DNA of 48,880 bases from Acidimicrobiia bacterium (GTDB taxonomy: Bacteria > Actinomycetota > Acidimicrobiia > Acidimicrobiales > Aldehydirespiratoraceae). Shown one piece after another: positions 1 through 43,358 of the stretch. The notes beneath the pieces are model-generated. The model ran no database searches and was not told the origin of the DNA. It saw only the letters and a list, made by a program, of their open reading frames with translations. The translations under genes and the position numbers were made by a program. Location of the stretch: NCBI GenBank assembly GCA_024421095.1, contig JAHQYM010000010.1:1-48880 (forward strand), in the 5' to 3' direction. Within the stretch, counting starts at the first letter, position 1; each line of letters starts with the position of its first letter.

Positions 1-108
1 TGCTTGCGTTCATGATGGCTGACTCGCCTACCGATGTCGCCAACAAAATCGATGCCTTTCACTCGAATCGCCGATCCGCCAATGTCTACACCGAATGCCG
101 TCAATAAA

Positions 109-183
109 CCACAAGGACACAACCCACGAGGACACAAACCACGAGGACACAAACCACAAGGACACAAACCACAAGGACATAAT
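109..183 (+). repeat. Five tandem 15-nt repeats, each carrying an SD-like core
   Basis: Five in-phase 15-nt units with the consensus CCACRAGGACACAAM. Read in the frame of the downstream gene they would encode Pro-(Gln/Arg)-Gly-His-(Lys/Asn) five times. Each unit contains AAGGA or GAGGA, which resembles a Shine-Dalgarno core. The last AAGGA (173-177) lies 6 nt before the GTG at 184. The array is therefore either a 5' leader with repeated ribosome-binding-like cores or a repetitive N-terminal extension of the aminotransferase. Confidence 0.85.
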
Positions 184-1293
184 GTGCTCAACCAAGCAAC
201 CAACACAAACCACAACTATTACGTTCCAGGGATGTCTAGCGAATACGTGGCACAACGCTATGGAATCGCAGTAGCCGACATTGCAAAACTAGGATCGGCA
301 GAGAACCCGCATGGCGCTTCACCGAAAGCGCGCGCCGCGGTAAGCGCAACAATCGACCGATTACACCTTTACCCCTCATGGACCGCCGAACCATTACGCG
401 AGAAAATAGCGGCAACCTACAACTACCAACCTGAACAGATAATCTGTGGAGCAGGTGAAACCGAACTCATCTCATTGATCATTCGTGCTTTCAGCGAACC
501 AGGCGGAAAAATACTAATGCCTGGCCCGTGCTTCCCGATCTACCACCTGTTCGCTGAAGCGGAAGGGCGAGTGGCGGTTCTAGCGCACGAAGCGACCGAT
601 CGCGCCTCAATGGCCCTTGACGTAGACACCTATATCGCGGCGATTGACGACAACACACGTATCGTGTTTGTAACAAATCCGCACAGCCCATCAGGCACTT
701 GGCTCAACGAATCCGATTTGCGCCGTATAACCGAGGCGGCACCGCATGCGTTGGTGGTGTTGGACGAGGCTTATGTTCACTATTCCAACACTGTTGGATA
801 CCTTCATCTACCCCAAGAATACCCGCACCTAATGGTGCTCAGAACCTTTTCTAAAGCATTTGGATTGGCCGGGTTACGTATCGGATTTGGCGTTGCTGAA
901 CGCACTGTCATCAATGCGCTTTTGGCGGTGAAACCGACTTGGAACCTCGGACAAATGCAGATTGCTGGAGGTGTCGCAGCCCTTGACGACCACGAACATG
1001 TGGCTTGGACTGTATCCACGATTCTTGATTCCAAACAGTACGTGTCTACCCGTTTTCGCGAGTTGGACAGGTTTCGCATGGTTCCCGAAAGCCGTTCCAA
1101 CTTTTTCTTAGTTGAGATCCTTGATCCAGACACAAACTCGACAGAAGTGTTCAACGGCCTGCTTGAGCGGGGTGTGATCGTGAAGGATGGGATGGATTCT
1201 TGGCGAGGGCTCAGCGACCGATTCCTACGTTGCGACGTGAACCATAGGCATTTGATGGATCAACTTGTTGACGCTCTAGCAGACTTGGAATAA
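184..1293 (+). CDS. HisC-like PLP-dependent aminotransferase (histidinol-phosphate aminotransferase family)
   Basis: Fold-type I class I/II aminotransferase. Family landmarks are visible in order: a YVPG motif near the N-terminus, SAENPHG (substrate-side ENP loop), NPHSPSGT, DEAYVHY, and the PLP Schiff-base lysine in RTFSKAFGLAGLR (about K224 from this start). The GTG start is chosen because an AAGGA lies 6 nt upstream and the resulting 369 aa is typical of HisC, with YVPG kept. An ATG at 34 would give 419 aa with an unusual His/Pro repeat extension, so the start remains open. No other his genes are near. The following genes are a Rieske oxygenase and an MmgE/PrpD protein, so the natural substrate may be another amino acid or amine rather than histidinol phosphate (inference). 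Confidence 0.85.
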   Translation: MLNQATNTNHNYYVPGMSSEYVAQRYGIAVADIAKLGSAENPHGASPKARAAVSATIDRLHLYPSWTAEPLREKIAATYNYQPEQIICGAGETELISLIIRAFSEPGGKILMPGPCFPIYHLFAEAEGRVAVLAHEATDRASMALDVDTYIAAIDDNTRIVFVTNPHSPSGTWLNESDLRRITEAAPHALVVLDEAYVHYSNTVGYLHLPQEYPHLMVLRTFSKAFGLAGLRIGFGVAERTVINALLAVKPTWNLGQMQIAGGVAALDDHEHVAWTVSTILDSKQYVSTRFRELDRFRMVPESRSNFFLVEILDPDTNSTEVFNGLLERGVIVKDGMDSWRGLSDRFLRCDVNHRHLMDQLVDALADLE

Positions 1294-1350
1294 CCCAGTG
1301 CAGAATTTTCCACACCGACGCAGACCACCAAACCAACAAGAAAGGTGACT

Positions 1351-2418
1351 ATGGCAGCGACCAACCATAGGGCGCTAGATGCCCAGTATTATACTGACCC
1401 AGAAATTTTCGCACTTGAACTTGAACGTATCTTCGCACGCACTTGGCAACTTGTTGGACACGTATCCCAAGTGTCGGAACCGGGGTGCTTACTAACCGCC
1501 CAAGTCGGCGACGAGAATGTAATCGTGGTCAACGATAATGGATTACTACGAGGCTTTTTCAACGTTTGTCAACATCGAGGGCATCAATTGGTCGATGCCG
1601 ATGGTGCCAAAGTGTCACGCATCACATGCCCCTACCACGCTTGGGCATACAGCCTCGGTGGCACTTTATTGAATGCGCGCGGCCAAGATGTCGGCGAACT
1701 GTGTGTGCCAAGGGTGCAAGTTGAATCGATGGCTGGTTTCTTGTATGTCAACCTTGATTCGGATGCTCCCTCGTTGTTAAACACCGTGCCGGGGATTGAT
1801 GCGGAACTAGCCGCGATCGCGCCCGACGCAACCAAACGTGTGCTGACTTGGCGGCGCAAACACCTCATCAAGGCCAACTGGAAAATAGCAGTCGAAAACT
1901 ACAACGAGTGCTATCACTGTCCGAACGTGCATAAGACCTTTACCGCAGGTATCATCGCTCCCGCAAGTTATCGCATCACCCCTAGGGGATACACGATCCA
2001 CCACACCGCAACAGCCGCGCCGGCAGAACGGTCAGCCTACGCTCGCCAAATCGACAGCAACGAATATGGTGCCTTCTACACCTGGCCAGTCTCCTCAATT
2101 CAATGTTACCCCGGACAGGTGCTCAACACTTTTCGTTGGGTTCCATTGACCGTTAACGAAACACTGCTGATCCGTGAGTGGTGGTTCGACCGGCCGGAAC
2201 CCACAACAGAACAACTCCAGGTGATTGAACTCGACTGGAACACCACCGTATGCGAAGACTTCGACATCATGGACTCGGTTCAAAGGGGTGTGGCTAGCCG
2301 CGGATATCAACCCGGTCCCTTGATTGTCGACCCAAGTGGAACCGCCGACGTGCATGCCGAAAACGCCGTGGCTCACCTAAACAACCTGCTACTCACAACG
2401 CTAAGCAAAGACGCGTGA
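1351..2418 (+). CDS. Rieske non-heme iron oxygenase, large subunit (betaine/carnitine demethylase-like)
   Basis: The Rieske [2Fe-2S] ligands are visible as C73-x-H75 (CQHRGH) and C93-x2-H96 (CPYH). The mononuclear iron site is the NECYHCPNVH motif, with an acidic residue later in DFDIMDS. The sequence around the iron site resembles GbcA, CntA and stachydrine demethylase, which remove N-methyl groups or cleave quaternary amines. This relation is inferred from motifs only. The ATG at 1351 follows AAAGG at a normal distance, whereas the in-frame GTG at 1345 has no comparable site. The gene starts 57 nt after the aminotransferase and its stop overlaps the GTG of the next gene (GTGA), so the three form one operon. 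No dedicated reductase is visible in the window, so electrons would have to come from elsewhere. Confidence 0.9.
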   Translation: MAATNHRALDAQYYTDPEIFALELERIFARTWQLVGHVSQVSEPGCLLTAQVGDENVIVVNDNGLLRGFFNVCQHRGHQLVDADGAKVSRITCPYHAWAYSLGGTLLNARGQDVGELCVPRVQVESMAGFLYVNLDSDAPSLLNTVPGIDAELAAIAPDATKRVLTWRRKHLIKANWKIAVENYNECYHCPNVHKTFTAGIIAPASYRITPRGYTIHHTATAAPAERSAYARQIDSNEYGAFYTWPVSSIQCYPGQVLNTFRWVPLTVNETLLIREWWFDRPEPTTEQLQVIELDWNTTVCEDFDIMDSVQRGVASRGYQPGPLIVDPSGTADVHAENAVAHLNNLLLTTLSKDA

Positions 2419-3779
2419 GCAACGCCGCATCGCCATCTCGAGAACTTGCGGAGCATCTTGTCGGCTGGCAAGGAAACGTTGAAGAACGCCTACTTCACAA
2501 GTCAACCAACGTCCTCATCGACACCTTAGGATGCATCACCTTTGGCGCAACCCTACCATGGTCAAAAGCCGCCGCCGCTTATGCACTAGCGACGGGAGGT
2601 ACCGGCGCAGCCACAATAATCGGGCAAGCCACCACAACCACGGCACCAATGGCCGCCTTCGCAAACGGGGCCGCAGCCCACGCTTTCGAATTAGATGATG
2701 TGCATGAAGAAGCGATCAGTCATCCCGGTGCGGTGGTCATTCCCGTAGCCATAGCGCTCGCCGAGCAAACCCAAGCAACCGTACTTGACCTCCAAGAAGC
2801 CGTGGTCATCGGCTATGAAGCCATGGGGCGTGCCGGATTAGCGGTGGGGCCAACGAGCCATATGCTTGCGGGATTTCATCCAACTTCAATGTCGGGAGTT
2901 TTCGGGTCGGTGGCGGCTGCCGCACGACTTTTTGGGTTTACTGGGGAACGCTTGAACCACGCCTTCGGGGTGGCGGTGTCGTTGGCTTCAGGAACCATGG
3001 AGTTCGCTTCTTCAGGTGGAATGGCCAAACGTATACACGCCGGGCGCGCCGCCGAAGCCGGGATAATGGCCGTACAACTAGTAGCTCACGGGTTTGAAGG
3101 GGCCTCCGACGGATTAGCCGGTAGGTACGGTTTTTGTCACGTATTTGGCACTAACCCCGAAATCGACCTGTTAACCGCAAAACTCGGCAGTCGCTGGATG
3201 ATAGACGAAATCACCGTCAAACCCTACGCCGCTTGCAGCGACATACACCCGCTAATCCAAGCCGCAACCGAGCTACGAACCGAGCATCAACTTCGTCCAG
3301 AACAGATTACACACATCGAAGCAGAAGCTCCCACAAAAGCCGTCACCCAAAACAACCTGGATGGAACATCATCGGTAATGGCCGCGCAGTATTCAGCGCC
3401 GTTCAACATCGCAGCCGCAATCCTCGCCAACCCCAGTGACCCGACAACCTATGCACCTGAACGAATCGCGAGCCAGACACTTGCTGATCTGCAAGCCAAG
3501 GTGCTGCTACGCGTTGCGAAACGATTTGACGCTACTTACGCTCACAAAATCGGTGGGACCGTAAGGATTTGCCTCGAAAGTGGAGAAGTTCTTGAACGCA
3601 CAGTGCATGGCCAAAAAGGTTCAATGCACAACCCCCTCAACCAACACGAAATCGATGCCAAATTCGCATCACTAGTAACTCATCGCGCGCCACACGAGCT
3701 ATCGCTGAACCTACGTAGCTACCTACAAAACCCAACAAACCCAGCAACAGGCCTGACGCAGCTACTGGTCCCCCAATAA
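2415..3779 (+). CDS. MmgE/PrpD family protein
   Basis: A 454-residue member of the MmgE/PrpD family, which includes 2-methylcitrate dehydratase and cis-aconitate decarboxylase. Recognisable segments are the N-terminal helical DTLGCITFGA region, the active-site-side FELDDVHEEAISHPG motif at about residue 95, a glycine/alanine-rich helical core, and a C-terminal lid region with KPYAACSDIHP. The GTG start overlaps the stop of the Rieske gene by 4 nt, indicating translational coupling. Family members act on diverse carboxylic acids and the precise substrate cannot be read from the sequence. The neighbours suggest a catabolic side path rather than the propionate cycle, because no prpB or prpC is present. 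Confidence 0.88.
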   Translation: MSNAASPSRELAEHLVGWQGNVEERLLHKSTNVLIDTLGCITFGATLPWSKAAAAYALATGGTGAATIIGQATTTTAPMAAFANGAAAHAFELDDVHEEAISHPGAVVIPVAIALAEQTQATVLDLQEAVVIGYEAMGRAGLAVGPTSHMLAGFHPTSMSGVFGSVAAAARLFGFTGERLNHAFGVAVSLASGTMEFASSGGMAKRIHAGRAAEAGIMAVQLVAHGFEGASDGLAGRYGFCHVFGTNPEIDLLTAKLGSRWMIDEITVKPYAACSDIHPLIQAATELRTEHQLRPEQITHIEAEAPTKAVTQNNLDGTSSVMAAQYSAPFNIAAAILANPSDPTTYAPERIASQTLADLQAKVLLRVAKRFDATYAHKIGGTVRICLESGEVLERTVHGQKGSMHNPLNQHEIDAKFASLVTHRAPHELSLNLRSYLQNPTNPATGLTQLLVPQ

Positions 3780-4626: not shown

Positions 4627-4710
4627 CCTGACGAACCGAGAAAATCGCAAAACAACCGACCACACCGATGTCACAGTCGGCTTGTAGCATCTTTGTACGG
4701 AGGGTCGACA

Positions 4711-7700
4711 ATGACATTCAATGAATACCGCCAAAGCATTGGTGCCGCGCACAGCACTGGTCAAGCAACAGAGCATAGTTATCGTGCTGCTCTTGCTACC
4801 CTGCTCGTTGGTGTTGGCAGCGATGCTGTAGATGCGCTCAACGAGCCAAGCCAACAATCCTACGGTGCACCAGATTTTGTTTTGCAACGCCGAGGGGTGC
4901 CTATCGGTCACATCGAGTGCAAAGATGTTGGCACCAACCTTGATGCCGTTGAGAGGAGCGAACAACTTGCGCGTTATCTTGCAGCGCTTCCGAATTTGCT
5001 GCTCACCGATTATCTGGAGTTCCGCTGGTTTGTGCGGGGTGAACGGCGCGGCGTGGCGCGATTGGGGCAACTCAATAATGCCGGCCAACTGGATTTTAGT
5101 CCCAAATATGATTCCGACCTGCACCAACTGCTAAGCAGTTTTTTTGCCGCCGAAGAGCCATCGGTGGGGCAGGCCGGTGAACTCGCCGAACGAATGGCAG
5201 CCATGGCAAAGATGTTGCGTGTGGCTATTGAAAAAATCCTAGACGAAGATGGCGAAAACGCCCCTGCGCTTACGGGGTTACTCGAGAGCTATCGCAAAGT
5301 GCTAATCAACGATCTCAGTGTTGCCGATTTCGCCGATCTGCAAGCGCAAACAGCGGCGTACGGTCTTTTTGCGGCGAGGTGTCTGCACTCGGGGCCACCC
5401 GCCGAGTTCAGCAGGCAATCGGCGGTGTTCGCCGACACCACGCCGTTTCTGCGTGACGTTTTCGGTCATATCGCTGGGCCAAGCGCCGATAGTCGCATCG
5501 TTTGGATCATTGATGACTTGGCCTTGCTACTCGCTAACGCAGACATGGCTTCGGTGTTAGAAGGGTTCGGAAGTGCGACACGCAAAGAAGATCCGATAGT
5601 CCACTTTTACGAAGATTTCCTCGCCGCTTACGACCCCAAACTGCGTGAGCTTCGAGGCGTGTATTACACGCCTGAGCCCGTGGTGTCCTACATCGTGCGT
5701 AGCGTTGATTTGCTGTTGCGAGACAGGTTTGCGGTGCGCGATGGCCTCGCCGATAGAACTACTGTGAATGTTGTCGACAAAGACGGTTCGGAGCGTGCGC
5801 TGCCGCGAGTGGTGATTCTTGATCCAGCGGCAGGTACGGGCACATTTTTGCGTGAAGTGATGGCCCAAGTTCGCCGTGACTTAGCCAAACGAGGCGTAGG
5901 TGGTTCGTGGGGAGTGTATGCGCCGAAATATTTGCTTCCCCAATTGTTTGGTTTTGAACTTTTGATGGCCGCCTACACGATTTGTCACCTGAAACTCACT
6001 TTGGAACTCGGTGAAGCGGGTGAGAAGTACACTCTGAGCGAGGGGACGCGTTTGGGTGTTTTTCTAACAAACACGCTTAGTGATGCCCACGAAGCAACGG
6101 GCGGTCCGATGTTTGCCCCTGAGATTGTGCGGGAAGCTCGCGAGGCTGATGCAGTCAAGCGTGAGCATCCGGTAATGGTGGTGATTGGCAACCCTCCCTA
6201 TTCGGGGCATTCGGCTAACAAAGGGAAATGGATTACCGATTTGATGCGGGGGCGGATCCTTGACGATCCGCAGAGCTATTTCAGCGTGGATGGCGAACCC
6301 TTAGATGAACGCAATCCAAAGTGGATAAATGACGATTATGTGAAGTTCATCCGTTTCGCGCAATGGCGGATCAGCCAGACCGGTGAGGGTATTGTGGGTT
6401 TCGTAACTAATCACAGTTATCTGGATAACCCTACTTTCAGAGGGATGCGGCGGTCCTTGATGGAAACCTTTGATGAGATTTGGTTGCTTGATTTGCATGG
6501 CAGTGCGAAGAAGCAGGAGAAAGCACCAGGTGGTGGTCGAGACCAGAATGTGTTTGATATTCAGCAGGGCGTGGCGATCAGTATTTTTGTTAAGGACGGG
6601 TCTTCTGGCGAGGGCTTAGCGAAGGTGTATCACGCCGACCTTTGGGGTGAACGAGACGATACTGAGTCAGGGAAATATGCTTGGCTTGCCGAACACGATG
6701 TAAAATCCACACGATGGTATGAGCTTGCGGCTAAAGCACCCGATTATTTTTTCGTGCCACGCGATGATGCACTGCAAGTTGAATACGAATCTGGCTGGAA
6801 GCTGACCGACATCGCGCCGATTCATTCAGTGGGAATGGTCACGGCACGAGACAAACTTGCCATCCAGTTCTCTGATGAAGAGATGAGGCGGGTTGCCAAT
6901 GAATTCGTGGGTCTTTCTGAAACTGATGCCCGTGAGAAGTATGGTCTTGGAGAGGATTCTTCGGATTGGACGGTTGCTGCCGCTCAAGACGATCTCCGCA
7001 CGCACCCGGACGCGAAAGCACACATCAAAACAGTCCTCTATCGACCTTTCGACAAACGCACCACGTATTTCACGGGTATGGCAGGTGGGTTTATCTGCCG
7101 GCCACGAGCCGAGGTCATGCACCATATGCTTGCCGGCCCCAATATTGGTTTGATTAGCTGCCGACAACAATCTCAGCAAGGAGTTTGGAACCTAACGGGT
7201 ATTACAGACGGCATGATCGAATCGGCTGCGATCTCAAACAAGACTAAACAAATCAATTACCTCTTCCCGTTATACCTCTACCCTTCTGGGGATGATGCCT
7301 TGAATTTGGGTGTTGCCAGTCGGGTGCCGAATCTCGCCCCAGAATTCATTGCGGCTATCTCAGCAGCATCTGGGCTCGAGTTTGTGGTCAATGGGGCGGG
7401 AGACCTAGTATTGACTTTCGGCCCTGAAGATGTGTTGCATTACATCTACGCGATGCTCCACAGTTCTTGGTTTCGGTTCAGATTCGCAGATTTCTTACGG
7501 TCGGATTTTCCGCGAATTCCGTTGCCGGCATACCCTGCCCAGTTCTCGATCCTCGCGCAACACGGGTCTCGGCTTGCTGCGCTGCATCTTCTAACAGCCG
7601 ATGGTGAAGAAATGCCTGTGTTCGGCGTGGGAGGGTCAGGCGTAGTGGAAACAGTTCGCTATGTTGAACCGTCTAGCGACACTCGGGGTCGCGTCTGGTT

Positions 7701-7914
7701 CAATCAAGACCAGCATTTTGATGGTGTGTCACCGGAGGCGTGGCAGTTCGTCATCGGCGGATACCAACCAGCTAAGAAATGGCTTGAAGACCGCACAGGC
7801 CGAACGCTCAGTTTCGACGATATTTTGGCTTACCAGCAGATTTGCGCTGCGCTAGGGGAAACGCCACAGGTGGTGGCCAAGATTGATGCCGCGGTTGAAA
7901 CTTCAGCCGTCTAA
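4711..7914 (+). CDS. Single-polypeptide restriction-modification enzyme (type ISP/IIG-like, N6-adenine methylase)
   Basis: A 1067-aa protein. An N-terminal PD-(D/E)xK nuclease signature is visible: D55 in APDF and E69-C-K71 in IECK. A long helical linker follows, then the N6-adenine methyltransferase core, with a motif X-like YYTPEPVVSYIV, motif I DPAAGTGTFL (D371) and motif IV NPPY (N494). The C-terminal third is the probable target-recognition region. No helicase Walker motifs lie between nuclease and methylase, unlike full-length translocating ISP enzymes such as LlaGI, so it is closer to a compact type IIG layout. The ATG at 4711 follows GGAGGG by 6 nt; the TTG at 4693 is not needed. No separate methylase or specificity gene is adjacent. 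It stands alone between the channel gene and a convergent regulator. Confidence 0.85.
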   Translation: MTFNEYRQSIGAAHSTGQATEHSYRAALATLLVGVGSDAVDALNEPSQQSYGAPDFVLQRRGVPIGHIECKDVGTNLDAVERSEQLARYLAALPNLLLTDYLEFRWFVRGERRGVARLGQLNNAGQLDFSPKYDSDLHQLLSSFFAAEEPSVGQAGELAERMAAMAKMLRVAIEKILDEDGENAPALTGLLESYRKVLINDLSVADFADLQAQTAAYGLFAARCLHSGPPAEFSRQSAVFADTTPFLRDVFGHIAGPSADSRIVWIIDDLALLLANADMASVLEGFGSATRKEDPIVHFYEDFLAAYDPKLRELRGVYYTPEPVVSYIVRSVDLLLRDRFAVRDGLADRTTVNVVDKDGSERALPRVVILDPAAGTGTFLREVMAQVRRDLAKRGVGGSWGVYAPKYLLPQLFGFELLMAAYTICHLKLTLELGEAGEKYTLSEGTRLGVFLTNTLSDAHEATGGPMFAPEIVREAREADAVKREHPVMVVIGNPPYSGHSANKGKWITDLMRGRILDDPQSYFSVDGEPLDERNPKWINDDYVKFIRFAQWRISQTGEGIVGFVTNHSYLDNPTFRGMRRSLMETFDEIWLLDLHGSAKKQEKAPGGGRDQNVFDIQQGVAISIFVKDGSSGEGLAKVYHADLWGERDDTESGKYAWLAEHDVKSTRWYELAAKAPDYFFVPRDDALQVEYESGWKLTDIAPIHSVGMVTARDKLAIQFSDEEMRRVANEFVGLSETDAREKYGLGEDSSDWTVAAAQDDLRTHPDAKAHIKTVLYRPFDKRTTYFTGMAGGFICRPRAEVMHHMLAGPNIGLISCRQQSQQGVWNLTGITDGMIESAAISNKTKQINYLFPLYLYPSGDDALNLGVASRVPNLAPEFIAAISAASGLEFVVNGAGDLVLTFGPEDVLHYIYAMLHSSWFRFRFADFLRSDFPRIPLPAYPAQFSILAQHGSRLAALHLLTADGEEMPVFGVGGSGVVETVRYVEPSSDTRGRVWFNQDQHFDGVSPEAWQFVIGGYQPAKKWLEDRTGRTLSFDDILAYQQICAALGETPQVVAKIDAAVETSAV

Positions 7915-7960
7915 GCGCTGCGTGCTGGTTACACCGTTGAGCTTGTTTGGTGGCGTGTGG

Positions 7961-8707
7961 TTAGTCGTAGGTGAGGTTATCGGCGAGGCTTGTGGCGGCG
8001 TTGATGACTAGGTTGCCGAGATCGTGGGTGCGTTCGGGATTTGGGAAACGGTATGCCGGGCCGTGAATATGCAGCGCGGACTGCACTGTACCGTCTGCTT
8101 CAACGATGGGCGCGGCGATTGAGTTGATCCCTTCGGCAAATTCTTCGTATACCCAGGCGTACCCCAAACTGCGAATGGTGCTTAGCCGTTCACGAATTTC
8201 GTCGGGGTCGGTAACTGTCCAAGGAGTAGAAGCGGTGAGCGGGCCTTGCAGATAATTCTCAAGTTCGGTTTCGCCGAAGTGAGCCAGTAGAACCAATCCA
8301 GATGGCACCGCGTGAAGCGGAGCGAGTTCGCCAGTCCAACTCCTCACTTGCACGTCGCTCTCTGCTTCTACATGGTCTAGGTAATAGACCGAGCGTCCGT
8401 TGAGAATTGAGACACCGGCGGCTTCGCTAGCTTCGTTGCAAAGCTCTATCAGGTAAGGACGGGCGGTGGCTACTAACCCGCTGCCTGGTTGGGTAGCGCC
8501 GGCGATGTCTAACAGCCCGTCACCAAGACGGTATTCTCCGCCGATACCGGCTTGGGCGACGGCACCTTCGTTTTCTAGTGCCGCCAAGAGGCGGGCCACG
8601 GTCGACTTGGGGAGTTCCACACGCTCCGCCAATTCGGTAACGCCAACTGGCCCAACCGCCAAAGCTCGTAGCAACGCGAAGGCTCGCTCAATCGATTGCA
8701 CAGACAT
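7961..8707 (-). CDS. IclR family transcriptional regulator
   Basis: A 248-aa protein with an N-terminal winged helix-turn-helix (MSVQSIERAFALLRAL, then VTELAERVELPKSTVARLL, residues about 1-65) and a C-terminal IclR effector-binding domain (YYLDHVEAES, AVPSGLVLLA, YAWVYEEFAEGINSIAAPI). IclR proteins bind small metabolites and control catabolic operons as repressors or activators. The gene converges on the restriction-modification gene and is divergent from nothing obvious. Its target may be the demethylase-type operon upstream or the formate dehydrogenase region, but the sequence gives no direct evidence. Confidence 0.92.
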   Translation of the reverse strand: MSVQSIERAFALLRALAVGPVGVTELAERVELPKSTVARLLAALENEGAVAQAGIGGEYRLGDGLLDIAGATQPGSGLVATARPYLIELCNEASEAAGVSILNGRSVYYLDHVEAESDVQVRSWTGELAPLHAVPSGLVLLAHFGETELENYLQGPLTASTPWTVTDPDEIRERLSTIRSLGYAWVYEEFAEGINSIAAPIVEADGTVQSALHIHGPAYRFPNPERTHDLGNLVINAATSLADNLTYD

Positions 8708-8717
8708 AACCTAGTTG

Positions 8718-8723
8718 ACTATA
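8718..8723 (-). promoter_or_regulatory. Candidate -10 box (TATAGT) of the iclR-type gene
   Basis: On the minus strand TATAGT lies 10 nt before the ATG of the IclR gene. This would give a transcript with only a few leader nucleotides. A -35 box is not clear. Confidence 0.4.
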
Positions 8724-8768
8724 GGCGCGTTCTGATTATCCGTGCGGAAAAAGATTTGGCGTTGTTCG

Positions 8769-9323
8769 TTAGACCTTGATTACGAGAGTGCCGGCTAGTT
8801 TGTCGTGCCAACCCTGCCGAGTTGAATCCCACAAAAACGAAATATAAACGATTAGCGACAATATTGGCCCGATAGTCGGAATCAAAGATAACACGGCGGG
8901 GACAATCCAACGCGCGATAGATTTCGACCACCCAACAATCTCGCCGTTGTCTGCTCGCACTACCTTTATCCCCGCGGCCATCTTACCTAGCGTTTGACCT
9001 TTCAGTGCGATCATGGTCACCTCGTAGGCAAGGCCAAAGATTATGATCAGTATTGCGACGAAGAGAATAAACACGAGACCGCCACTGCCCGAACTGCTAA
9101 CGATTACAGCGAAAGCGATTAACAGAAAAACCACCGAAGCCCCAAAAACAATGAAAAAATCCAATACCCTTGCGCCGAACCGTTGGAGAGTGCTCGCGAG
9201 TTCTACTACATGACCGTTGCCGAGGCTTGCCCAACCGGTTGCACTTGATGGCGGAACGTAGCCTTCATGTGCTTGCGGGTGCGGATCGCTAGGTGGCGGC
9301 GGTGGCGGCGGTGTGTCTGACAT
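8769..9323 (-). CDS. RDD family membrane protein
   Basis: 184 aa. The start is taken at MSDTPPPPPP because AAAGGAG precedes it at a good distance; a longer frame to 9362 has no such site. After a proline-rich cytosolic N-terminus (about 50 residues) comes the RDD domain: the first membrane segment begins with RFGARVLDFFIVFGA (the Arg and Asp of the RDD signature), then LVFILFVAILIIIFGLAYEV, GQTLGKMAAGIKVVR, and a C-terminal pair of membrane segments. RDD proteins are poorly defined; some affect ion or proton exchange. It is transcribed away from the IclR gene in the same direction and lies between it and proS. Confidence 0.88.
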   Translation of the reverse strand: MSDTPPPPPPPSDPHPQAHEGYVPPSSATGWASLGNGHVVELASTLQRFGARVLDFFIVFGASVVFLLIAFAVIVSSSGSGGLVFILFVAILIIIFGLAYEVTMIALKGQTLGKMAAGIKVVRADNGEIVGWSKSIARWIVPAVLSLIPTIGPILSLIVYISFLWDSTRQGWHDKLAGTLVIKV

Positions 9324-9375
9324 GGCGTGCTCCTTTAGGTAGTTACATGTGCCACTTGACACGATAGCACAACGG

Positions 9376-11085
9376 TCAACGTTTCTGTTTGTTGACTATC
9401 TCGTTAAGGTGCTCCACCACCAACCCGATAGGGCAACGTAAGGTTTCGTTCGTTGATCTAGTGGTGATTTCCACTTCCCCTTCAGCTAACGCTCTAGGGC
9501 CAATCGTGACCCGATAGGGCACACCAATCAACTCTGCGTCAGCGAATTTCACACCAGCGCGCACACCACGGTCGTCCAACAACACATCAATACCTTGATT
9601 GAGCAGGTCTTGATAAAGCGTTTCGCTAGCGCGCCTAGAAACTGCGTCCTTGAGGTTCAGAATCGTTATCACCACATCAAAGGGGGCAACGGCCAACGGC
9701 CAGACAAGGCCCTTGTCATCATGGTACACCTCGGCAACGGCAGCCAAATTGCGACCGATGCCGATTCCGTAACTCCCCATCACCAAGGGCGTTTGCTTAC
9801 CGTTCCGGTCGAGCACGAACGCACCAAGCGCACTAGAGTACTTGGTCCCCAACTTGAAAATGTGGCCCGCTTCGATGCAACGAAGCACCTCGAGTGGCAT
9901 ACCGCAAACAACGCACGGCTCAGCCGCTTTCACCCTCCGCAAATCGGCCCAATCATCAACGGCGATGTCACGCGCGACATCCACGCCTGAGAAGTGCCAA
10001 TCGTCTTCGTTGGCACCTGTGGTCAAACCTCGCCGTCCCCTAAGAGCCGGATCGCAAATGATTCGTAAATCTTCAACATGCACCGCGCCGAGCGAACCGG
10101 GATGCGCCCCCAACCATTTCAACGCCTCGTCTGGCGTAGCTGGCCGAACATCTGCGGCCCCCGTGTAATCGGCGAGTTTTTGCAACTCGAGTTCATGGTC
10201 ACCACGCAGCAATGCCAATGTCACCTCGCCGTCAAGCACCATCACCATGGTCTTGATTTGATGTACCGCAGTCGCACCCCCCGCGACCGTTTCCAAAGCA
10301 GCAATCGTACGCACACCGGGGGTAGGGAAGCGCATCAAATCGGGCAGGTCACGATCCACGAGTTCCGCTATTTGAGCTTGAGCGCGTTCAAGATTGGATG
10401 CATAACCGCACTCGCGACAAAGCGCAATGTCGTCCTCGCCAGCGGGTGACGGAACCATAAACTCGGTAGACCCGGAACCACCCATCGCGCCAGAAGATGC
10501 TTGCACAGCGATAGTCGGCAGACCCAAAGCAGCAAAAATGCGTTCATACGCACGCCGATGTGCGTCGAAACTGCTGTCAAGCCCGGCCTCGTCTACATCA
10601 AAAGAATAGGAATCCTTCATGGCGAACTCTCGAACGCGCAACAGCCCACCCTTGGGGCGAGGTTCATCACGGAACTTCCATTGAATCTGAAACCAGATTT
10701 GTGGCAACGCCTTGTAAGAAGTGATCTCTTTGGCGACCTCAGCAAAAACCTCTTCATGGGTCATCCCCAAGACGTTGTCGGCACCCTTGCGATCCACTAA
10801 CCGAAACAATTCTTCACCAACGGCCTGCCAACGCCCGGACTTCTTCCAAATCTCAGCCGGATGCATCGCCGGCAACAGAAACTCCTGCGCGCCTATTGCC
10901 TCCATCTCGCGCCGCACGATCGCGGCGACCTTCTCATGAACGCGTAACCCAAGAGGCAGCAAAGAATAATGCCCCGAGTGCAGTTGACGAATGAAACCGC
11001 CACGAATCAGCAGGGTGTGGTTCGTTGCTTGAGCATCGGCGGGAGCTTCACGCAACGTAGGAATGAACAATTGTGACCAACGCAT
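9376..11085 (-). CDS. proS: Prolyl-tRNA synthetase
   Basis: A 569-aa bacterial-type class II aminoacyl-tRNA synthetase. Visible elements are the N-terminal FIPTLREAPADAQATNHTLL, motif 1 region RREMEAIGAQEFLLPAMHP, motif 2 region RPKGGLLRVREFAMKDSYSF, an editing (INS) insertion in the middle with TGANEDDWH, motif 3 region GIGRNLAAVAEVYHD, and a C-terminal anticodon-binding domain. It charges tRNA-Pro in the cytosol. The start is set at the ATG at 11085, because TATGGT lies exactly 6 nt upstream (leaderless) and this gives the usual family length. A longer frame to 11151 adds residues with no family support. Confidence 0.96.
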   Translation of the reverse strand: MRWSQLFIPTLREAPADAQATNHTLLIRGGFIRQLHSGHYSLLPLGLRVHEKVAAIVRREMEAIGAQEFLLPAMHPAEIWKKSGRWQAVGEELFRLVDRKGADNVLGMTHEEVFAEVAKEITSYKALPQIWFQIQWKFRDEPRPKGGLLRVREFAMKDSYSFDVDEAGLDSSFDAHRRAYERIFAALGLPTIAVQASSGAMGGSGSTEFMVPSPAGEDDIALCRECGYASNLERAQAQIAELVDRDLPDLMRFPTPGVRTIAALETVAGGATAVHQIKTMVMVLDGEVTLALLRGDHELELQKLADYTGAADVRPATPDEALKWLGAHPGSLGAVHVEDLRIICDPALRGRRGLTTGANEDDWHFSGVDVARDIAVDDWADLRRVKAAEPCVVCGMPLEVLRCIEAGHIFKLGTKYSSALGAFVLDRNGKQTPLVMGSYGIGIGRNLAAVAEVYHDDKGLVWPLAVAPFDVVITILNLKDAVSRRASETLYQDLLNQGIDVLLDDRGVRAGVKFADAELIGVPYRVTIGPRALAEGEVEITTRSTNETLRCPIGLVVEHLNEIVNKQKR

Positions 11086-17659: not shown

Positions 17660-20356
17660 GTGACTGGACAAGACTGGTTCGCCACCGCTCAGAGGCCGTC
17701 ATCGGGCGCGCATTTTTACAAGTGCGCGCTCCAAGTGAACCCCCATCACTACTCCGGGACGTTCCGGGGGCAGGCGAGTGGAGGCAGTTCGCTCGAGTAC
17801 GCGCAGGCAATCATCGCTGAAGCCGTAGCGCTCGAAGTGTCGGTACTTGCCATCACCGACCACAACAGCGTCAGTTCGATCCACGAGTTCCGAGCCGCCG
17901 CGGAAGGTCACCAAATCACGATCTTTCCCGGATTCGAGATCGCCTCGTCTGAAGGTATCCACATTCTCTGCTTCTACCCGCCGGACACCGCCGCGGAGAC
18001 ACTCGAACGATTTCTCGGCGAGTTGGGGATACGCAGTACCGAACCCTCCTCCGATCTGTCCAGCGACCCGTTCGCGCAGATTCTCCAGAAAGTAAGAGCA
18101 CAAGGTGGTGTCACTGTCGCTGCACACGTAACCGGCAGCAAGGGATTGTTTGAGGTACTTGAGGGCCAGGCCTGCATTCGCGCTTGGCGCAACGAGGATC
18201 TGCTTGCGATCCAGATCCCAGGACCAGTCAGCGCCCTGCCAGACAAGGTGCGCCAAATCGTGAATAACAAGAATCACGATTACCGTCGCTCCCATGCGGT
18301 TGGCGTAGAGCGAGCTGTGGCTACAGTCAATGCCAAGGACATCAGGAAACCCGAGGACTTGCACGACCCGTCCGCAACGTCTTGGATCAAGATGTCTGAA
18401 GTCAGCATTGAGGGCTTGCGCCAGGCATTCCTGGACCCAGACTCGAGAATAAGGCTCAACAGCGACCCTGAACCCGAAGAGCACGCAGAACTGGTGACCC
18501 TCGAATGGAATGGAGGATTCCTCGACGGGGCCGCCGTCCACTTCAACCCGAACCTGAACGTGCTCATCGGTGGACGCGGTGCCGGTAAATCCACGGTCAT
18601 TGAGAGTCTGCGGCATGTGCTCAACCTCGAACCCACCGGCGAAGATGCCCTCAAGGCACACACGGGAATGGTGCGTCAAGTAATTCGCAGTGGCACAAAG
18701 ATCACCCTCCGCACGCGGGTCTTCCGCCCCGCGGAACGTGAATACCTGATCGAACGGACCGTCCCGAATCCGGCGATAGTGCGCGAATCGAACGGGCAGA
18801 TCTCCAATCTGTCCCCTCGCGACATTCTTCCTAACGTTGACATCTACGGACAGCATGAAATATCGGAGCTTGCGAAGAGCCCCGAGAAGCGCACCGTGTT
18901 GATCGACAGATTCGTCCCGCGCGATGAGTCGTTGAATCGGCAGAAGACGAGCGTGATTCGCAGTTTGCAACAGACCAGAAAGTCAATCGTCGATGCGCGC
19001 GCCGAGATCGAGCAGATTGACGAACAATTGGCCAAGCTGCCCGGCCTGGAAGAAACCTTGGAAAGGTACAAGGAAGCCGGACTCGAAAATCGACTGCGCG
19101 AACGGAGCCTTCTGGTTCGCGAAGAACGCCTGCTCGACTCGATTCCCGAGCGAATCTCGGTTTTTCGCGAGTGCTTGGACGCGCTCCGACAGGAGTTGCC
19201 GATCGATCGAGCCTTCCTGTCCGAGAAGGCACTCGAAGAACTTCCTGGAAAGGAGATCCTCGCAAGTGCCGATCCCGTCCTCGAACAACTGAGCCGCGAA
19301 ATCGAAGCGTCGGCAACGCTGATTGAGAAAGCGCTCGAGCAGGCGCACGACGGCGTGACCGGTGTCATTCGCCGCTGGTCCGTCAGAAAGGGCGAAGTCG
19401 AGTCCGAGTATCAGCAGATACTCCGTGAACTCCAGAAATCAGCTGTGGACGGGGCCGAGTTCATCCGCCTCCAACGCGAGATCGAGGCTCTCCGCCCCTT
19501 ACGGGATCGCAGGACCTCACTGGATCGGCTCGAGACGGACTGCTCCGAGCAGAGACGTGCGCTGCTGGCCGAATGGGAGGATCTCAAGGCTCGTGAGTTC
19601 CGCGGCCTGGACCGGGCGGCCAAGAGCGTGAGCAGTGACTTGCGGGACCGAGTGCAGGTCAGCGTGACCGCCTCAGGCAATCGGGAGCCTCTGTCCAGAC
19701 TGCTCAGAGAGGAGATCGGCGGGCGCCTCTCCGAAGCAATCGACAAACTCGAACAGGCCCCAGATTTCTCATTGACCAATTTCGTCAAGTGTTGCAGGGA
19801 CGGCTCGGACGCGCTGCAACGCGCTTACTCGATCCCTGCGGCACAAGCAATAAGCCTGACAGAGGCTACGGCGGACACCTTGATGCGGGTAGAAGAGTTG
19901 GAACTCCCGCCCACAACAGACCTAGAGTTGAACACGGCTGCGGCCGACGACCCCCCGTACTGGCAGGCTCTTGAAGACCTCTCTACAGGGCAGAAGGCGA
20001 CGGCCGTGCTTTTGCTTCTGCTTTTGGAGTCTGACGCGCCATTGATTGTTGACCAGCCTGAGGACGACCTTGACAACCGTTTCATCACTGAAGTCGTAGT
20101 ACCACGAATGCGCGAGGAAAAGCGGCGTAGACAATTTCTTTTCTCCACTCATAACGCCAACATACCGGTGCTCGGGGATGCTGAGCTGATTCTTGGACTG
20201 ACCGCATCTGGTGATGCCGACAACAAAGGCAAAGCGGTTATCAGACCCGAGCACACGGGTTCCATTGATGTCTCGGGAGTGCGCGAACTGGTCGAAGAAA
20301 TACTCGAAGGGGGCAAGAATGCCTTTGAGACGAGAAGGCTGAAGTATGGTTTCTAG
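17660..20356 (+). CDS. PHP-domain/SMC-like ATPase (TrlF-like), putative defence protein
   Basis: 898 aa. Residues about 20-290 look like a PHP phosphoesterase fold: FYKCALQVNP in place of the usual DLHxH strand, then AITDHNSVSS, FPGFEIASSEGIHIL and VAAHVTGSKG. An ABC/SMC-type ATPase follows: Walker A GGRGAGKST (K310), a long central coiled coil (about 420-680, rich in Glu/Arg/Leu), signature-like LSTGQKA, Walker B LIVDQPEDDLD (D798), and the switch histidine in FLFSTHNANIPV. This architecture matches the family named TrlF in public annotation, often found with mobile or defence genes. The GTG start has no clear SD; the real start could differ. Base composition and codon use differ visibly from both flanks. 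The gene is followed after 9 nt by an AlbA_2 gene. Confidence 0.8.
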   Translation: MTGQDWFATAQRPSSGAHFYKCALQVNPHHYSGTFRGQASGGSSLEYAQAIIAEAVALEVSVLAITDHNSVSSIHEFRAAAEGHQITIFPGFEIASSEGIHILCFYPPDTAAETLERFLGELGIRSTEPSSDLSSDPFAQILQKVRAQGGVTVAAHVTGSKGLFEVLEGQACIRAWRNEDLLAIQIPGPVSALPDKVRQIVNNKNHDYRRSHAVGVERAVATVNAKDIRKPEDLHDPSATSWIKMSEVSIEGLRQAFLDPDSRIRLNSDPEPEEHAELVTLEWNGGFLDGAAVHFNPNLNVLIGGRGAGKSTVIESLRHVLNLEPTGEDALKAHTGMVRQVIRSGTKITLRTRVFRPAEREYLIERTVPNPAIVRESNGQISNLSPRDILPNVDIYGQHEISELAKSPEKRTVLIDRFVPRDESLNRQKTSVIRSLQQTRKSIVDARAEIEQIDEQLAKLPGLEETLERYKEAGLENRLRERSLLVREERLLDSIPERISVFRECLDALRQELPIDRAFLSEKALEELPGKEILASADPVLEQLSREIEASATLIEKALEQAHDGVTGVIRRWSVRKGEVESEYQQILRELQKSAVDGAEFIRLQREIEALRPLRDRRTSLDRLETDCSEQRRALLAEWEDLKAREFRGLDRAAKSVSSDLRDRVQVSVTASGNREPLSRLLREEIGGRLSEAIDKLEQAPDFSLTNFVKCCRDGSDALQRAYSIPAAQAISLTEATADTLMRVEELELPPTTDLELNTAAADDPPYWQALEDLSTGQKATAVLLLLLLESDAPLIVDQPEDDLDNRFITEVVVPRMREEKRRRQFLFSTHNANIPVLGDAELILGLTASGDADNKGKAVIRPEHTGSIDVSGVRELVEEILEGGKNAFETRRLKYGF

Positions 20357-20365
20357 GTGGCCAGT

Positions 20366-21613
20366 ATGAACCGCTTAGAACTCTCGCAGTTGCTACTTCA
20401 CGGTGAGAACTCCGGGTTGGAATTCAAACGCGACGACACGCAACCCCGGAAACTCGCTGGAGAGATCGCCGCGTTACTCAACCTGCAAGGTGGACACATA
20501 CTGCTCGGCGTCGAAGAAGACGGAACCGTTTCTGGTCTGACGCGAGACCCGAAACAAGCCGAAGAATGGGTCATGCAGACTGCAAGAGACAACGTCCAGC
20601 CAGCGGTGATCCCGTACTGGGAAACCCTTGAGGTGGACGACGGCGCAGTTGTCGGGGTTGTCACGCTTTCCGCGGATGCCCCAGACAAACCATACAAGGT
20701 CAAGTGCGGCAGTTCGTGGGTAACCCGAATCCGTGTGGGCACGACGACTCGGGATGCAACCAGAGAAGAGGAAGAGCGTCTTTACCAGCAGTCAGGCAGG
20801 TTGAGGTATGGGATGAAACCCGTGCCGGGAACGAGCACACAGGATCTGGACCTTCGGCGTCTTCGTGACTATTTCGTTCGAGTCCTAGGCACGAAGAGCT
20901 TTCCTGAAGACGACTCAGACGAACTCAAACAGTTGCTAATCAACCTAGAATTGGCAACGGTGGCGACCTTAGACGGACACACTTCGGCAACTGTGGACGG
21001 GTTGTTGCTCTTTGGCAAGAAACCTGAGCGTTTCCTGCCCCAATCAGGTGTGAGGGCAGTTTGCTATCAGGGAACCGAACCAGGTTATGCGGTTCGCGAA
21101 GACCAGGTCATAAAGGGTCCGCTGACTCCATTGGGTGCCGGTGGCGAGCCAGGTTTCGAACCTGGGATCGTGGACAGAGCGTGGGATTTCGTGCGGCGCA
21201 ACACAGTCTCTACAGCACGGCTGGAGGGAGCGCGGCGGCAAGAACGCTGGGAGTATCCGCAGGAGGTGCTCCGCGAGGTTCTGGTGAACGCACTGGCCCA
21301 CCGCGACTACAGCATCGCGGGGACCGACGTGATGCTGTCCATATTCTCTGACCGTTTAGAGGTACAGAGCCCGGGCCGCTTACCGAACACTGTGACCGTC
21401 GACGGCTTACGGTCAGGAATGCGCTATGCCCGGAACCAGACGCTCGTCAACATTCTGCGAGACTACGGTTACGTCGACGCCCGAGGCATGGGGATCCGCA
21501 ACAAGGTCATTCCGCTGATGAATGAACACAACGGAACAGATCCGGAGTTCATTGAGGAAGAACATCGATTCACCGTGCGCCTTTTGAAACAAGCCTCCAA
21601 CTCGCCCTCATGA
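20366..21613 (+). CDS. AlbA_2 (Schlafen-type) and GHKL-ATPase-like protein, partner of the PHP-ATPase
   Basis: 415 aa. The N-terminus carries an AlbA_2/divergent AAA_4 domain (LLLHGENSGLEFKRD, then EIAALLNLQGGHILLGVEEDG), seen in Schlafen-like nucleases and many bacterial regulators. The C-terminal half resembles the HATPase_c_4 domain (EVLREVLVNALAHRDYS, LEVQSPGRLPNTVT, DARGMGIRNKV) found with RecG-like proteins. The ATG at 20366 follows AGGTGG and lies 9 nt after the PHP-ATPase stop, so the two are co-transcribed. Composition matches its partner rather than the rest of the window. A nucleic-acid-sensing or nuclease role is plausible but not shown. Confidence 0.8.
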   Translation: MNRLELSQLLLHGENSGLEFKRDDTQPRKLAGEIAALLNLQGGHILLGVEEDGTVSGLTRDPKQAEEWVMQTARDNVQPAVIPYWETLEVDDGAVVGVVTLSADAPDKPYKVKCGSSWVTRIRVGTTTRDATREEEERLYQQSGRLRYGMKPVPGTSTQDLDLRRLRDYFVRVLGTKSFPEDDSDELKQLLINLELATVATLDGHTSATVDGLLLFGKKPERFLPQSGVRAVCYQGTEPGYAVREDQVIKGPLTPLGAGGEPGFEPGIVDRAWDFVRRNTVSTARLEGARRQERWEYPQEVLREVLVNALAHRDYSIAGTDVMLSIFSDRLEVQSPGRLPNTVTVDGLRSGMRYARNQTLVNILRDYGYVDARGMGIRNKVIPLMNEHNGTDPEFIEEEHRFTVRLLKQASNSPS

Positions 21614-21645: not shown

Positions 21646-23103
21646 CTAGTTTTTTGCCGCAGATTGATCGTAATTCTTGGCTTTGCGTTTGCGTGCTAGA
21701 TACCAGAACAATCCTGTTGCCAGCGCCGCGAACGGTACAAACGGTAAGGCGGTGCCGATGATGATCAACAATGCTGAACCTAACCTAGTGATTGCAGACC
21801 AACCCGATGACACCGAATCGAAGAAGCCGGGTAGCGGTTCGGTAACGCTGGCTTCTAAATACACGAAACCAGAGACCCTTAGTTCCTGCTCATCGTTGTG
21901 TGGCAACAACGATGCGGCAGGCACAGCCGTGGCGTTCACCTCGATTTGTTCCACTTGGTTAACGTTGACGCGACGCACGAACCCGTCGACCGATTCGAGT
22001 TCAGCCACTGCAACCACAACCCCGCCCGGTTCTAAAGCGTTGAGATTGCCACTTCGCAGCGTGAGGTCGTCAACCCGCATCCGCAGCGTCGGCACATTAA
22101 TGTCAATACTGGTTAACACATCATCCCCAGTGTTACGCACCTCAACACACAAGACCGCATTGTCGTTGGCTTCGATAGTCAAATCTGTCAAACCAGGGCA
22201 GGCATCTTCTTCGTTATCACCAAGCCACACAACCATGTTGATGGACGCGTCTGGGTCTTCTTCACGCAACTCGTTGATGGTCACGGTTATGGTGGCCAGG
22301 CTCACCTGATTTTGGAGCGTTCTGAGGCGGCCTTTGAGTTGTTCCAAAAGGGTTTCACGCTCAAGTAGTTGTTGTTCTAGCTCAACCAAGCCTTCGATTT
22401 CTGTGGCGTTTGCTATGAGCGTCCGCACGCGCTCAACGCTCAATTCCGCAGTCGTGATACGGCTCTGCAGGTCAACAACACGTTCGGTTACGTCATCGGT
22501 TTGGGTGGTTTGGCGCTGCAACTCACCCACACCCTCTAGAGCACGCATCGCCTGATCAAAGACGCTTGGGTCAACTTTGTAGGTAAGGACGGTGCGTGGT
22601 CGCACATTCATACGGGTGTCTTGGCCGAACAAAAAACCTCCCAGCTCAGCGATCGCTTGGTTCGCTGCGAGGGTGGCTGCTGGCACATCAATCACCTGGA
22701 TAACTATCTCCGCGGTGTAAATTATCTGGCGTCCGACATCGATTGGGGTTGTCTCAGGAAGCGACGTTTCCTGTGCAGCACTCGTTGCGGACAGCACCAG
22801 CGCGGAATCTTCACTCATCGAATCGTCACTCATCGAATCGTCACTCATCGAATCGTCACTCGTGGGTGCGATAGTCGCGGACGAAAAAGCCACGACATTG
22901 CCCATCTCGGTATCTGCACTGGCATCCGACACGAATTCTTCACTGGAGTCCGACATTGTTTCCGCATACCCATCAGCAGGTTCGTCTGCGCTCAAGACGG
23001 TGGAATTCGCTGTGGTGTCATCATTGCTGCAAGCGCCTAAAAGCAGTAAACCCCCAAGCAACGCAACCACCACCCAAACAAAGCATCTCACAAAAGCAGT
23101 CAT
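21646..23103 (-). CDS. DUF4349 domain lipoprotein
   Basis: 485 aa. The signal peptide ends in a lipobox (LLLLGAC, then Ser), so the mature protein is anchored to the outer leaflet of the membrane. A low-complexity Ser/Asp/Met stretch follows. The DUF4349 domain is next (RQIIYTAEIVIQVIDV, the GGFLFGQDTR region, then a coiled coil LVELEQQLLERETLLEQL), and then a beta-rich extension. A single C-terminal membrane helix (ALLIIIGTALPFVPFAALA) precedes a basic tail. The start at 23103 is favoured because GAGGAG lies upstream; the TTG at 23121 would overlap that site. The function of the family is unknown. Confidence 0.88.
   Translation of the reverse strand: MTAFVRCFVWVVVALLGGLLLLGACSNDDTTANSTVLSADEPADGYAETMSDSSEEFVSDASADTEMGNVVAFSSATIAPTSDDSMSDDSMSDDSMSEDSALVLSATSAAQETSLPETTPIDVGRQIIYTAEIVIQVIDVPAATLAANQAIAELGGFLFGQDTRMNVRPRTVLTYKVDPSVFDQAMRALEGVGELQRQTTQTDDVTERVVDLQSRITTAELSVERVRTLIANATEIEGLVELEQQLLERETLLEQLKGRLRTLQNQVSLATITVTINELREEDPDASINMVVWLGDNEEDACPGLTDLTIEANDNAVLCVEVRNTGDDVLTSIDINVPTLRMRVDDLTLRSGNLNALEPGGVVVAVAELESVDGFVRRVNVNQVEQIEVNATAVPAASLLPHNDEQELRVSGFVYLEASVTEPLPGFFDSVSSGWSAITRLGSALLIIIGTALPFVPFAALATGLFWYLARKRKAKNYDQSAAKN
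22816..22860 (-). repeat. Three perfect 15-bp tandem repeats inside the DUF4349 gene
   Basis: The unit CATCGAATCGTCACT (plus strand) occurs three times head to tail, with a partial fourth copy at 22803-22815. It encodes a repeated Ser-Asp-Asp-Ser-Met pentapeptide in the linker after the lipobox. Copy number changes would keep the frame and only change linker length. Confidence 0.9.
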
Positions 23104-23219: not shown

Positions 23220-23309
23220 TGGCGGAAGGTATGGGATTTGAACCCATGGTGACCCGTAGGCCACAACGGCTTTCGAGGCCGCCCCATTCGTCCGCTCTGG
23301 CAACCTTCC
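23220..23309 (-). tRNA. tRNA-Ser (anticodon CGA)
   Basis: On the minus strand the acceptor stem GGAAGGT pairs with ACCTTCC, followed by discriminator G and an encoded CCA. The anticodon stem GCGGC/GCCGT closes the loop CTCGAAA, giving anticodon CGA (reads UCG). A long variable arm (class II tRNA) and the T-loop GGGTTCAAATCCC fit tRNA-Ser. Length is 90 nt including CCA. Confidence 0.95.
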
Positions 23310-42428: not shown

Positions 42429-43358
42429 ATGAGCGTTATCGCTACCTCAAATTTGACGATGCAGTTTGGTGAGCAGCGTGCTCTAGATTCGCTGACTGTT
42501 GATGTGCCAAGTGGGGTGACTGGGCTGGTCGGGGCTAATGGTGCCGGCAAAACGACTTTCATGAGTTTGTTGTTGGGTTTACGGTCACCTACTTCTGGGC
42601 AGGTTTTGGTGTTTGGGTTTGATCCGCAGGTTCGTGGCGCGGAGTTGCGCGCGCTTATTGGTTATGGCCCCGAACGGAATATTTTGCCGGCGGATATGCC
42701 CGCGGTGGATTTCGTGAAGCATATGTCTGAGTTGCGGGGGATGCCTCGTAGTGAAGCTAAGGGTCGTGCTAGCGATGCTTTGTGGTTAGTGGGTTTGGGT
42801 GAGGAGCGTGCGCGTGCGCTTGGCACGATGTCTACGGGTCAACGTCAGCGGGTGAAACTTGCTCAGGCGATGGCTTCTGACCCTTCGATGTTGCTTTTGG
42901 ATGAACCAACTGATGGCCTTGACCCGGTGCAACGTGATGAGATGTTGTCGCTTATCCGCAAGATCAATCGCGAGTTTGGTATTGATGTGCTGCTTTCGTC
43001 TCATTTGCTTGAAGAGGTGGAAAGGATTTGTGACCATATTGTGGCTTTGGATTCGGGCAGCTTGGTGGCACAAGGTAGGCTTGTTGATCTCATCGGTGAT
43101 CAGCAGGGAGTGGTGGTGGAGTTGGCTGAGATTGCTGATTATCCGCACGCTTTTGCTGATGTGGTGAGCCAGTTGCGCGATTCTGGCCTCACAGTTTCTC
43201 ATGGTGATGCTGCACCGCGGATGGAGGTGGTTGGTGCCGATGTTGGTATGGTCGCCGATGTGGTACGAGACGCGATTGTGGATGCTAACGCTCGGGTTGT
43301 GCGTATTGAAACTCGTAGACGCCGTCTTGAAGATGTGTTTTCGGTTGGTGGACAATGA
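42429..43358 (+). CDS. ABC-2 type transporter ATPase (pair 1)
   Basis: 309 aa. Walker A GANGAGKTT, signature STGQRQRVKLAQAM, Walker B MLLLDEPTDGLDP and switch His in LLSSHLLEEVERI are intact. The C-terminal 80 residues resemble the extension found in CcmA/NatA-type drug or polymer export ATPases. It overlaps the following permease start (ATGA), so the pair is translationally coupled. Confidence 0.92.
   Translation: MSVIATSNLTMQFGEQRALDSLTVDVPSGVTGLVGANGAGKTTFMSLLLGLRSPTSGQVLVFGFDPQVRGAELRALIGYGPERNILPADMPAVDFVKHMSELRGMPRSEAKGRASDALWLVGLGEERARALGTMSTGQRQRVKLAQAMASDPSMLLLDEPTDGLDPVQRDEMLSLIRKINREFGIDVLLSSHLLEEVERICDHIVALDSGSLVAQGRLVDLIGDQQGVVVELAEIADYPHAFADVVSQLRDSGLTVSHGDAAPRMEVVGADVGMVADVVRDAIVDANARVVRIETRRRRLEDVFSVGGQ

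Follow-up and report, generated by a model that had tools for sequence, protein, structure and literature searches.

What is the two-gene block that fills positions 17660-21613 of the window, the whole 48,880-nucleotide stretch of an Acidimicrobiia contig (JAHQYM010000010.1, assembly GCA_024421095.1) that was analysed here, and could it serve its host against phages? A sequence-only reading of this DNA had likened the block to anti-phage systems and ranked it as the strongest novelty candidate of the window. We find that it encodes relatives of TrlF and TrlG, a pair published for temperature restriction, and that this pair recurs inside several unrelated anti-phage systems of distant bacteria; on balance, we favour the reading that it is a mobile, defence-linked module that arrests the growth of its own cell. 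The two genes are:

17660-20356, + strand: trlF-like gene (PHP plus SMC/Rad50-like ATPase), 898 amino acids (aa), GTG start; NF045780, with Foldseek matches to SMC/Rad50 heads and PHP nucleases
20357-21613, + strand: trlG-like gene (AlbA_2 (Schlafen) plus HATPase_c_4), 418 aa as listed; PF04326, PF13749

Both open reading frames are uninterrupted and stand back to back, and the distinct composition that had marked them as an island was also recovered: their GC content at third codon positions (GC3; 0.676 for trlF and 0.635 for trlG) ranks 1 and 2 among the 33 window genes (the other 31: 0.546 +/- 0.036), and their synonymous codon usage deviates with z 12.3 (trlF) and z 3.4 (trlG). On its own, this composition is moderate evidence, because other window genes deviate too: a run of four genes at 42429-46028, two or more of them ABC-transporter-like, shows codon usage z 6-8 and a high GC skew. 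The true start of trlG is probably the ATG at 20366 rather than the GTG at 20357, because homologues open with MNxTEL and the GTG sits within a candidate ribosome-binding motif:

20355-20360, + strand: Shine-Dalgarno-like AGGTGG that overlaps the trlF stop codon; read from the sequence, with a presumed role

The 898-aa protein is a full-length member of the TrlF family, matching NF045780 (NCBIfam, TrlF_fam_ATP) over model positions 2-944 of 944 with 523.5 bits (E 1.7e-156), well above the curated cut-off of 350 bits. Its PHP match alone is weak (Pfam, 23.4 bits, below the 26.4 cut-off), which is expected because the first metal motif is replaced. Structure comparison nevertheless supports a predicted PHP fold: in a Foldseek search, the AlphaFold2 model of TrlF (mean predicted local distance difference test score (pLDDT) 74.6, C-terminus poor) best matched SMC and Rad50 heads, together with the PHP domains of RNase AM, Endonuclease Q and PolIII-alpha. 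The parts of TrlF are:

17705-18445, + strand: PHP domain (aa ~16-262), from alignments and the PHP folds of RNase AM and Endonuclease Q
18569-18592, + strand: Walker A GGRGAGKS (aa 304-311), from the sequence; GGRGxGKS across TrlF proteins of the window's type
18926-19645, + strand: long helical (coiled-coil) section (aa ~423-662), from long helices in the AlphaFold2 model
19979-20068, + strand: ABC signature LSTGQ (aa 774-778) and Walker B region LIVDQPEDD (aa 795-803), from alignment conservation

TrlG matches PF04326 (SLFN_AlbA_2, 1.7e-14), PF13749 (HATPase_c_4, 1.1e-21) and also SLFN profiles; the domains first proposed for the pair, PHP plus coiled-coil ATPase and AlbA_2 plus GHKL-type ATPase, proved correct. 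In the TrlG model (pLDDT 83.3), the N-terminal part resembles DIP2311, the SAMD9 tRNase domain (Z 10.2) and Schlafens (SLFN5, Z 9.3), that is, an AlbA_2 fold akin to the SLFN/SAMD9 nuclease domains, and the C-terminal part resembles histidine-kinase-type ATPases:

20405-20749, + strand: AlbA_2/Schlafen domain (aa 17-131); E17, E22 and acidic 53-55 as the Schlafen triad; structural matches to SLFN/SAMD9 tRNases
21275-21583, + strand: GHKL-like ATP-binding part; ExxxN box E307-N311; HATPase_c_4 at aa 322-409; histidine-kinase and PDK/BCKDK folds

The residues E17, E22 and acidic 53-55 align to E205, E210 and D248 of SLFN13 (the window's Glu54 stands opposite D248), all of which SLFN13 requires for tRNA cleavage, E205A and E210A being fully inactive. 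This alignment and the SAMD9 tRNase and SLFN folds support an RNase, and TrlG is a probable Schlafen-type RNA-cutting partner. The same domains bear on a view of the block as a plain DNA-repair or recombination pair, in which a Rad50/RecN-like TrlF would work with a RecG-like helper and have no defence role. Annotations and profile matches do label such genes recG-like, RecN-like or DNA repair protein, but the Pfam profile search gave no helicase domain in TrlG, and a sporadic presence in the genus and locations in restriction operons (below) are a poor fit for a repair gene; we regard this view as very improbable.

Are the two genes a true pair? The conserved co-occurrence that had been suggested as a check was borne out: a TrlG relative lies directly downstream of TrlF in 10/10 nearest loci (genome_contigs search) and, in a phylum sample of 296 genomes, all five strong window-type TrlF sites have a strong TrlG as neighbour, just as each strong TrlG adjoins such a TrlF. 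The TrlF and TrlG trees are also highly correlated (Mantel r 0.92 over 22 pairs, with 0/2000 permutations as high), including inside the window-type clade (r 0.70, 0/2000) and, to a lesser degree, among the 15 closest pairs (r 0.34, 5/2000). TrlF and TrlG thus share their phylogeny and form a true pair. Its distribution is sporadic, since the pair is present in the window genome and in two of five other species of the genus. The left flank (formate dehydrogenase genes, MTTB) is kept in four genus mates, where a Rieske-type gene, and not the pair, comes after MTTB, and the right-flank gene, DUF4349, is located elsewhere in three genus mates; acquisition of the pair by transfer is the natural reading. 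TrlF genes also occur singly. The window's own genome holds a second TrlF (L033, contig C41:2784-5606), 25% identical, with HxH and SDxH intact, on a contig that ends ~280 bases past it, where a partner would fall; solo TrlF genes with no annotated TrlG adjoining were seen on plasmids (L016, L017, L050, L051, L069, L070).

The pair has a named relative. In Photorhabdus laumondii, trlF, trlG and a small trlR (79 aa) make up the temperature restriction locus (TRL), which is also present in Yersinia ruckeri and is induced when the temperature is raised to 36 C (PMC7554251). Growth at 36 C becomes possible when trlG carries a point mutation, a stop or an insertion, or when the operon is deleted, and is arrested again once the operon is put back (PMC7554251). 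Photorhabdus TrlG is likewise AlbA_2 plus HATPase_c_4, with loss-of-function mutations in both domains (PMC7554251). The window pair shares gene order, domains and TrlG architecture with this locus, and its TrlF is covered by the same NCBI model; the Yersinia ruckeri pair (L048) has the same order, with TrlG directly downstream, and the same tight spacing, yet is only 25% (TrlF) and 30% (TrlG) identical. The window also differs in lacking trlR, in having QxN in place of HxH, and in keeping the second Schlafen Glu where that branch has Gln. Around the window pair, no trlR-like gene was found: the 118 bp from MTTB to trlF hold no plausible regulator, and the next downstream gene is DUF4349, on the opposite strand. 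Because this third gene is missing, we file the locus as a TrlF-TrlG pair and not as a TRL operon. The suggestion that the pair belongs to no named system is therefore overturned by trlF/trlG of Photorhabdus, of the same architecture and order; the match to a named system, which was to count against novelty, holds as far as the NCBI TrlF family and the Photorhabdus genes go, but that name was given for temperature restriction and not for phage defence. To call the block the strongest novelty candidate was too strong, the pair having been described in 2020 (PMC7554251).

If the pair itself is not new, what links it to phages? Its relatives sit within defence operons. On a Vibrio plasmid, a TrlF-TrlG relative lies between pglX and pglZ of a type 1 bacteriophage exclusion system (BREX-1), and another locus (L014) carries two different tandem TrlF-TrlG pairs (1-3717 and 5848-9901; TrlFs 28% and 58% identical to the window TrlF), followed by PglZ- and BrxL-like genes. 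Hma operons read HmaA-HmaB-TrlF-TrlG-HmaC (L053) and HmaA-TrlF-TrlG (L054). Type I restriction genes flank the pair on a Citrobacter IncC plasmid (between hsdS and hsdR) and on the NDM plasmid pNDM102337 (between hsdR and hsdS); elsewhere it adjoins methylase and specificity genes (L013) or stands near an AbiLi-like ATPase, RloB and a DUF1156 methylase (L006). At other loci, L010, L012 and L015 among them, no defence gene was visible around the pair under limited annotation. The relatives are thus genetically linked to BREX, Hma and type I restriction-modification systems. A 2026 survey counted at least 1017 taxa in which a Schlafen RNase joined to a minimal histidine kinase neighbours BREX and DUF499 systems, and suggested that such fusions serve as backup effectors (PMC12839542); this is a TrlG-like architecture in the same BREX/DUF499 (Hma) contexts, and the main text of that survey does not mention PHP or Trl.

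These locations have to be weighed against the view that the pair is a stress-response growth regulator, which would sense temperature or another stress and arrest growth, its sites in restriction operons merely reflecting shared mobile elements. The Photorhabdus genetics are direct, with induction on the shift to 36 C (PMC7554251), and the window copy stands among metabolic genes; however, the pair has repeatedly inserted among the core genes of defence systems that are unrelated to one another (BREX, Hma, type I restriction), it is distributed sporadically and carried on plasmids, all of which is what defence modules typically show, and heat may also make a growth-arrest toxin misfire. We therefore consider a stress regulator distinctly unlikely and prefer a defence-linked arrest module.

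The pair fits none of the named defence systems compared here. The PADLOC check that had been advised returned no named PADLOC 2023 system: the best match of TrlF was a partial one to Ppl, and those of TrlG were to pAgo-associated models only. By profile, no named defence protein comes nearer to TrlF than Ppl (NCBIfam 5.8e-58, PADLOC 2.1e-42), which shares the PHP plus NTPase plan; unlike the window pair, Ppl is a single gene, and the window TrlF scores 196.6 bits against an equivalog cut-off of 1000, lacks HxH and has a Schlafen partner. Ppl is a 3'-5' single-stranded DNA (ssDNA) exonuclease that is released once a phage has depleted nucleotides and created DNA ends (PMC12904381); on its mechanism, our literature search gave no paper beyond that review. 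The Spaf_1101 family AAA-like ATPase (NF045781) is also related to TrlF (1.3e-56), at 192.5 bits against a cut-off of 475. In PARIS, an ATPase that senses a restriction inhibitor is coupled to the tRNA-cutting AriB and is recruited to BREX loci (PMC12839542); the window pair resembles it in combining an ABC-type ATPase with an effector and in being able to sit inside BREX loci. It differs in that AriB is a TOPRIM protein and TrlG a Schlafen (TrlG has no TOPRIM match), and in that AriA, an OLD-family protein, has no PHP and is a weak match (1.6e-10). PARIS, Septu and Gabija were rejected, since similarity is limited to the ATPase, and a phage gene pair was rejected as PHROGs matches were generic only.

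Which of the two partners would then act as the nuclease? In all 20 window-type TrlF proteins examined, QxN (Q25, N27) stands in place of HxH and SDxH lacks its last His, which leaves the metal site of the Ppl type incomplete; H68, E93, H101, H156 and D227 are kept, D227 aligning with the Asp of SDxH. Because the replacement QxN is strictly conserved, the pattern argues for a functional, not a decaying, PHP pocket. Window-type TrlG keeps both Schlafen Glu (E17, E22). In the Photorhabdus-type branch (Yersinia, Pseudomonas and an E. coli plasmid; L046, L047, L048), the PHP domain retains HxH but TrlG has Gln in the position of its second Glu, and in a third type, from a genus mate (L034), HxH, SDxH and both TrlG Glu are all kept. 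Drawn from few branches, this pattern suggests that which partner's site is competent may differ by branch. A one-to-one swap, with TrlG replacing a dead PHP, is weakened by plasmid TrlFs that have QxN and no TrlG (L016, L017, L050, L051).

These sites also bear on a defence that targets DNA directly, in the manner of Ppl or an SMC-nuclease, in which TrlF itself would recognise foreign or linear DNA and degrade it with its PHP domain, and TrlG would be a nucleic-acid-binding accessory. That Ppl, which TrlF resembles most among named defence proteins, is a PHP ssDNA exonuclease, that many plasmids carry TrlF without TrlG, and that the Photorhabdus-type branch keeps HxH while its TrlG has Gln for E22 all speak for such a defence; the window branch, by contrast, has altered its PHP motifs in every member checked and retains both Schlafen Glu, and for the window we judge DNA targeting unlikely.

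For the preferred arrest module, we propose, modelled on Ppl and PARIS, that TrlF senses and TrlG executes. TrlF, with its SMC/Rad50-like ATPase and remodelled PHP pocket, would sense infection (through DNA ends, a shortage of nucleotides, or a restriction or BREX system that has failed) and release or activate TrlG, whose Schlafen domain would cut RNA, most likely tRNA, so that the cell is arrested before the phage multiplies; the GHKL-like domain of TrlG may bind ATP as a switch. The pair would then probably be a backup trigger that halts the growth of an infected cell. Growth arrest is supported by the loss of heat arrest in Photorhabdus trlG mutants and operon deletions (PMC7554251); we infer phage as the trigger, TrlF as the sensor, RNA as the target, direct contact between TrlF and TrlG, and a benefit to the cell. 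A more specific version is possible but doubtful: TrlF-TrlG would be an unrecognised anti-phage guest module guarding BREX, Hma and restriction systems, with a branch-dependent nuclease centre, namely a QxN sensor pocket and a cutting Schlafen in the window type, and a kept HxH with Schlafen Glu changed to Gln in the Photorhabdus type.

Several points weigh against an anti-phage arrest module. AlbA_2 domains are often nucleic-acid binders only. TrlF probably acts without TrlG as well, because plasmids commonly carry a TrlF gene on its own, its PHP altered in the same way. Our literature search found no phage experiment with a TrlF-TrlG pair, the sole published phenotype of a relative being a temperature-dependent arrest, in a branch 25-30% identical, and no trlF mutation was among the Photorhabdus screen mutants (PMC7554251). 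Finally, the window genes as annotated are metabolic, transport or housekeeping genes save one type ISP restriction enzyme. The anti-phage idea of the sequence-only reading is thus favoured by the relatives in BREX, Hma and restriction operons, but the window itself is not a defence island.

Judged by the literature consulted, two things are new: the variety of defence systems in which TrlF-TrlG is lodged, and the active-site changes that distinguish its branches. If the pair guards these systems as PARIS does, the Photorhabdus arrest could be explained as a misfiring defence toxin, and a Schlafen-based guard system would be added to those known. The complementary active-site changes offer direct, cheap mutant tests of the effector partner in each branch.

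The restriction enzyme lies ~9.7 kb upstream of the pair:

4693-7914, + strand: type ISP/IIG restriction-methylation enzyme, 1073 aa; PF18135; PADLOC REase_MTase_IIG 3.8e-271

On a Comamonas plasmid (L071), a fragment annotated as a type ISP enzyme lies just upstream of a TrlF match. The window's own genome gave no PglZ match, the locus no match to a sigma-70-type promoter, and the surroundings of the pair no flanking repeats marking an insertion end. A tRNA-Ser (23220-23309) lies near the pair, and a 15-base repeat in three to four copies (22805-22876) lies inside the DUF4349 gene, where it encodes repeated DDSMS.

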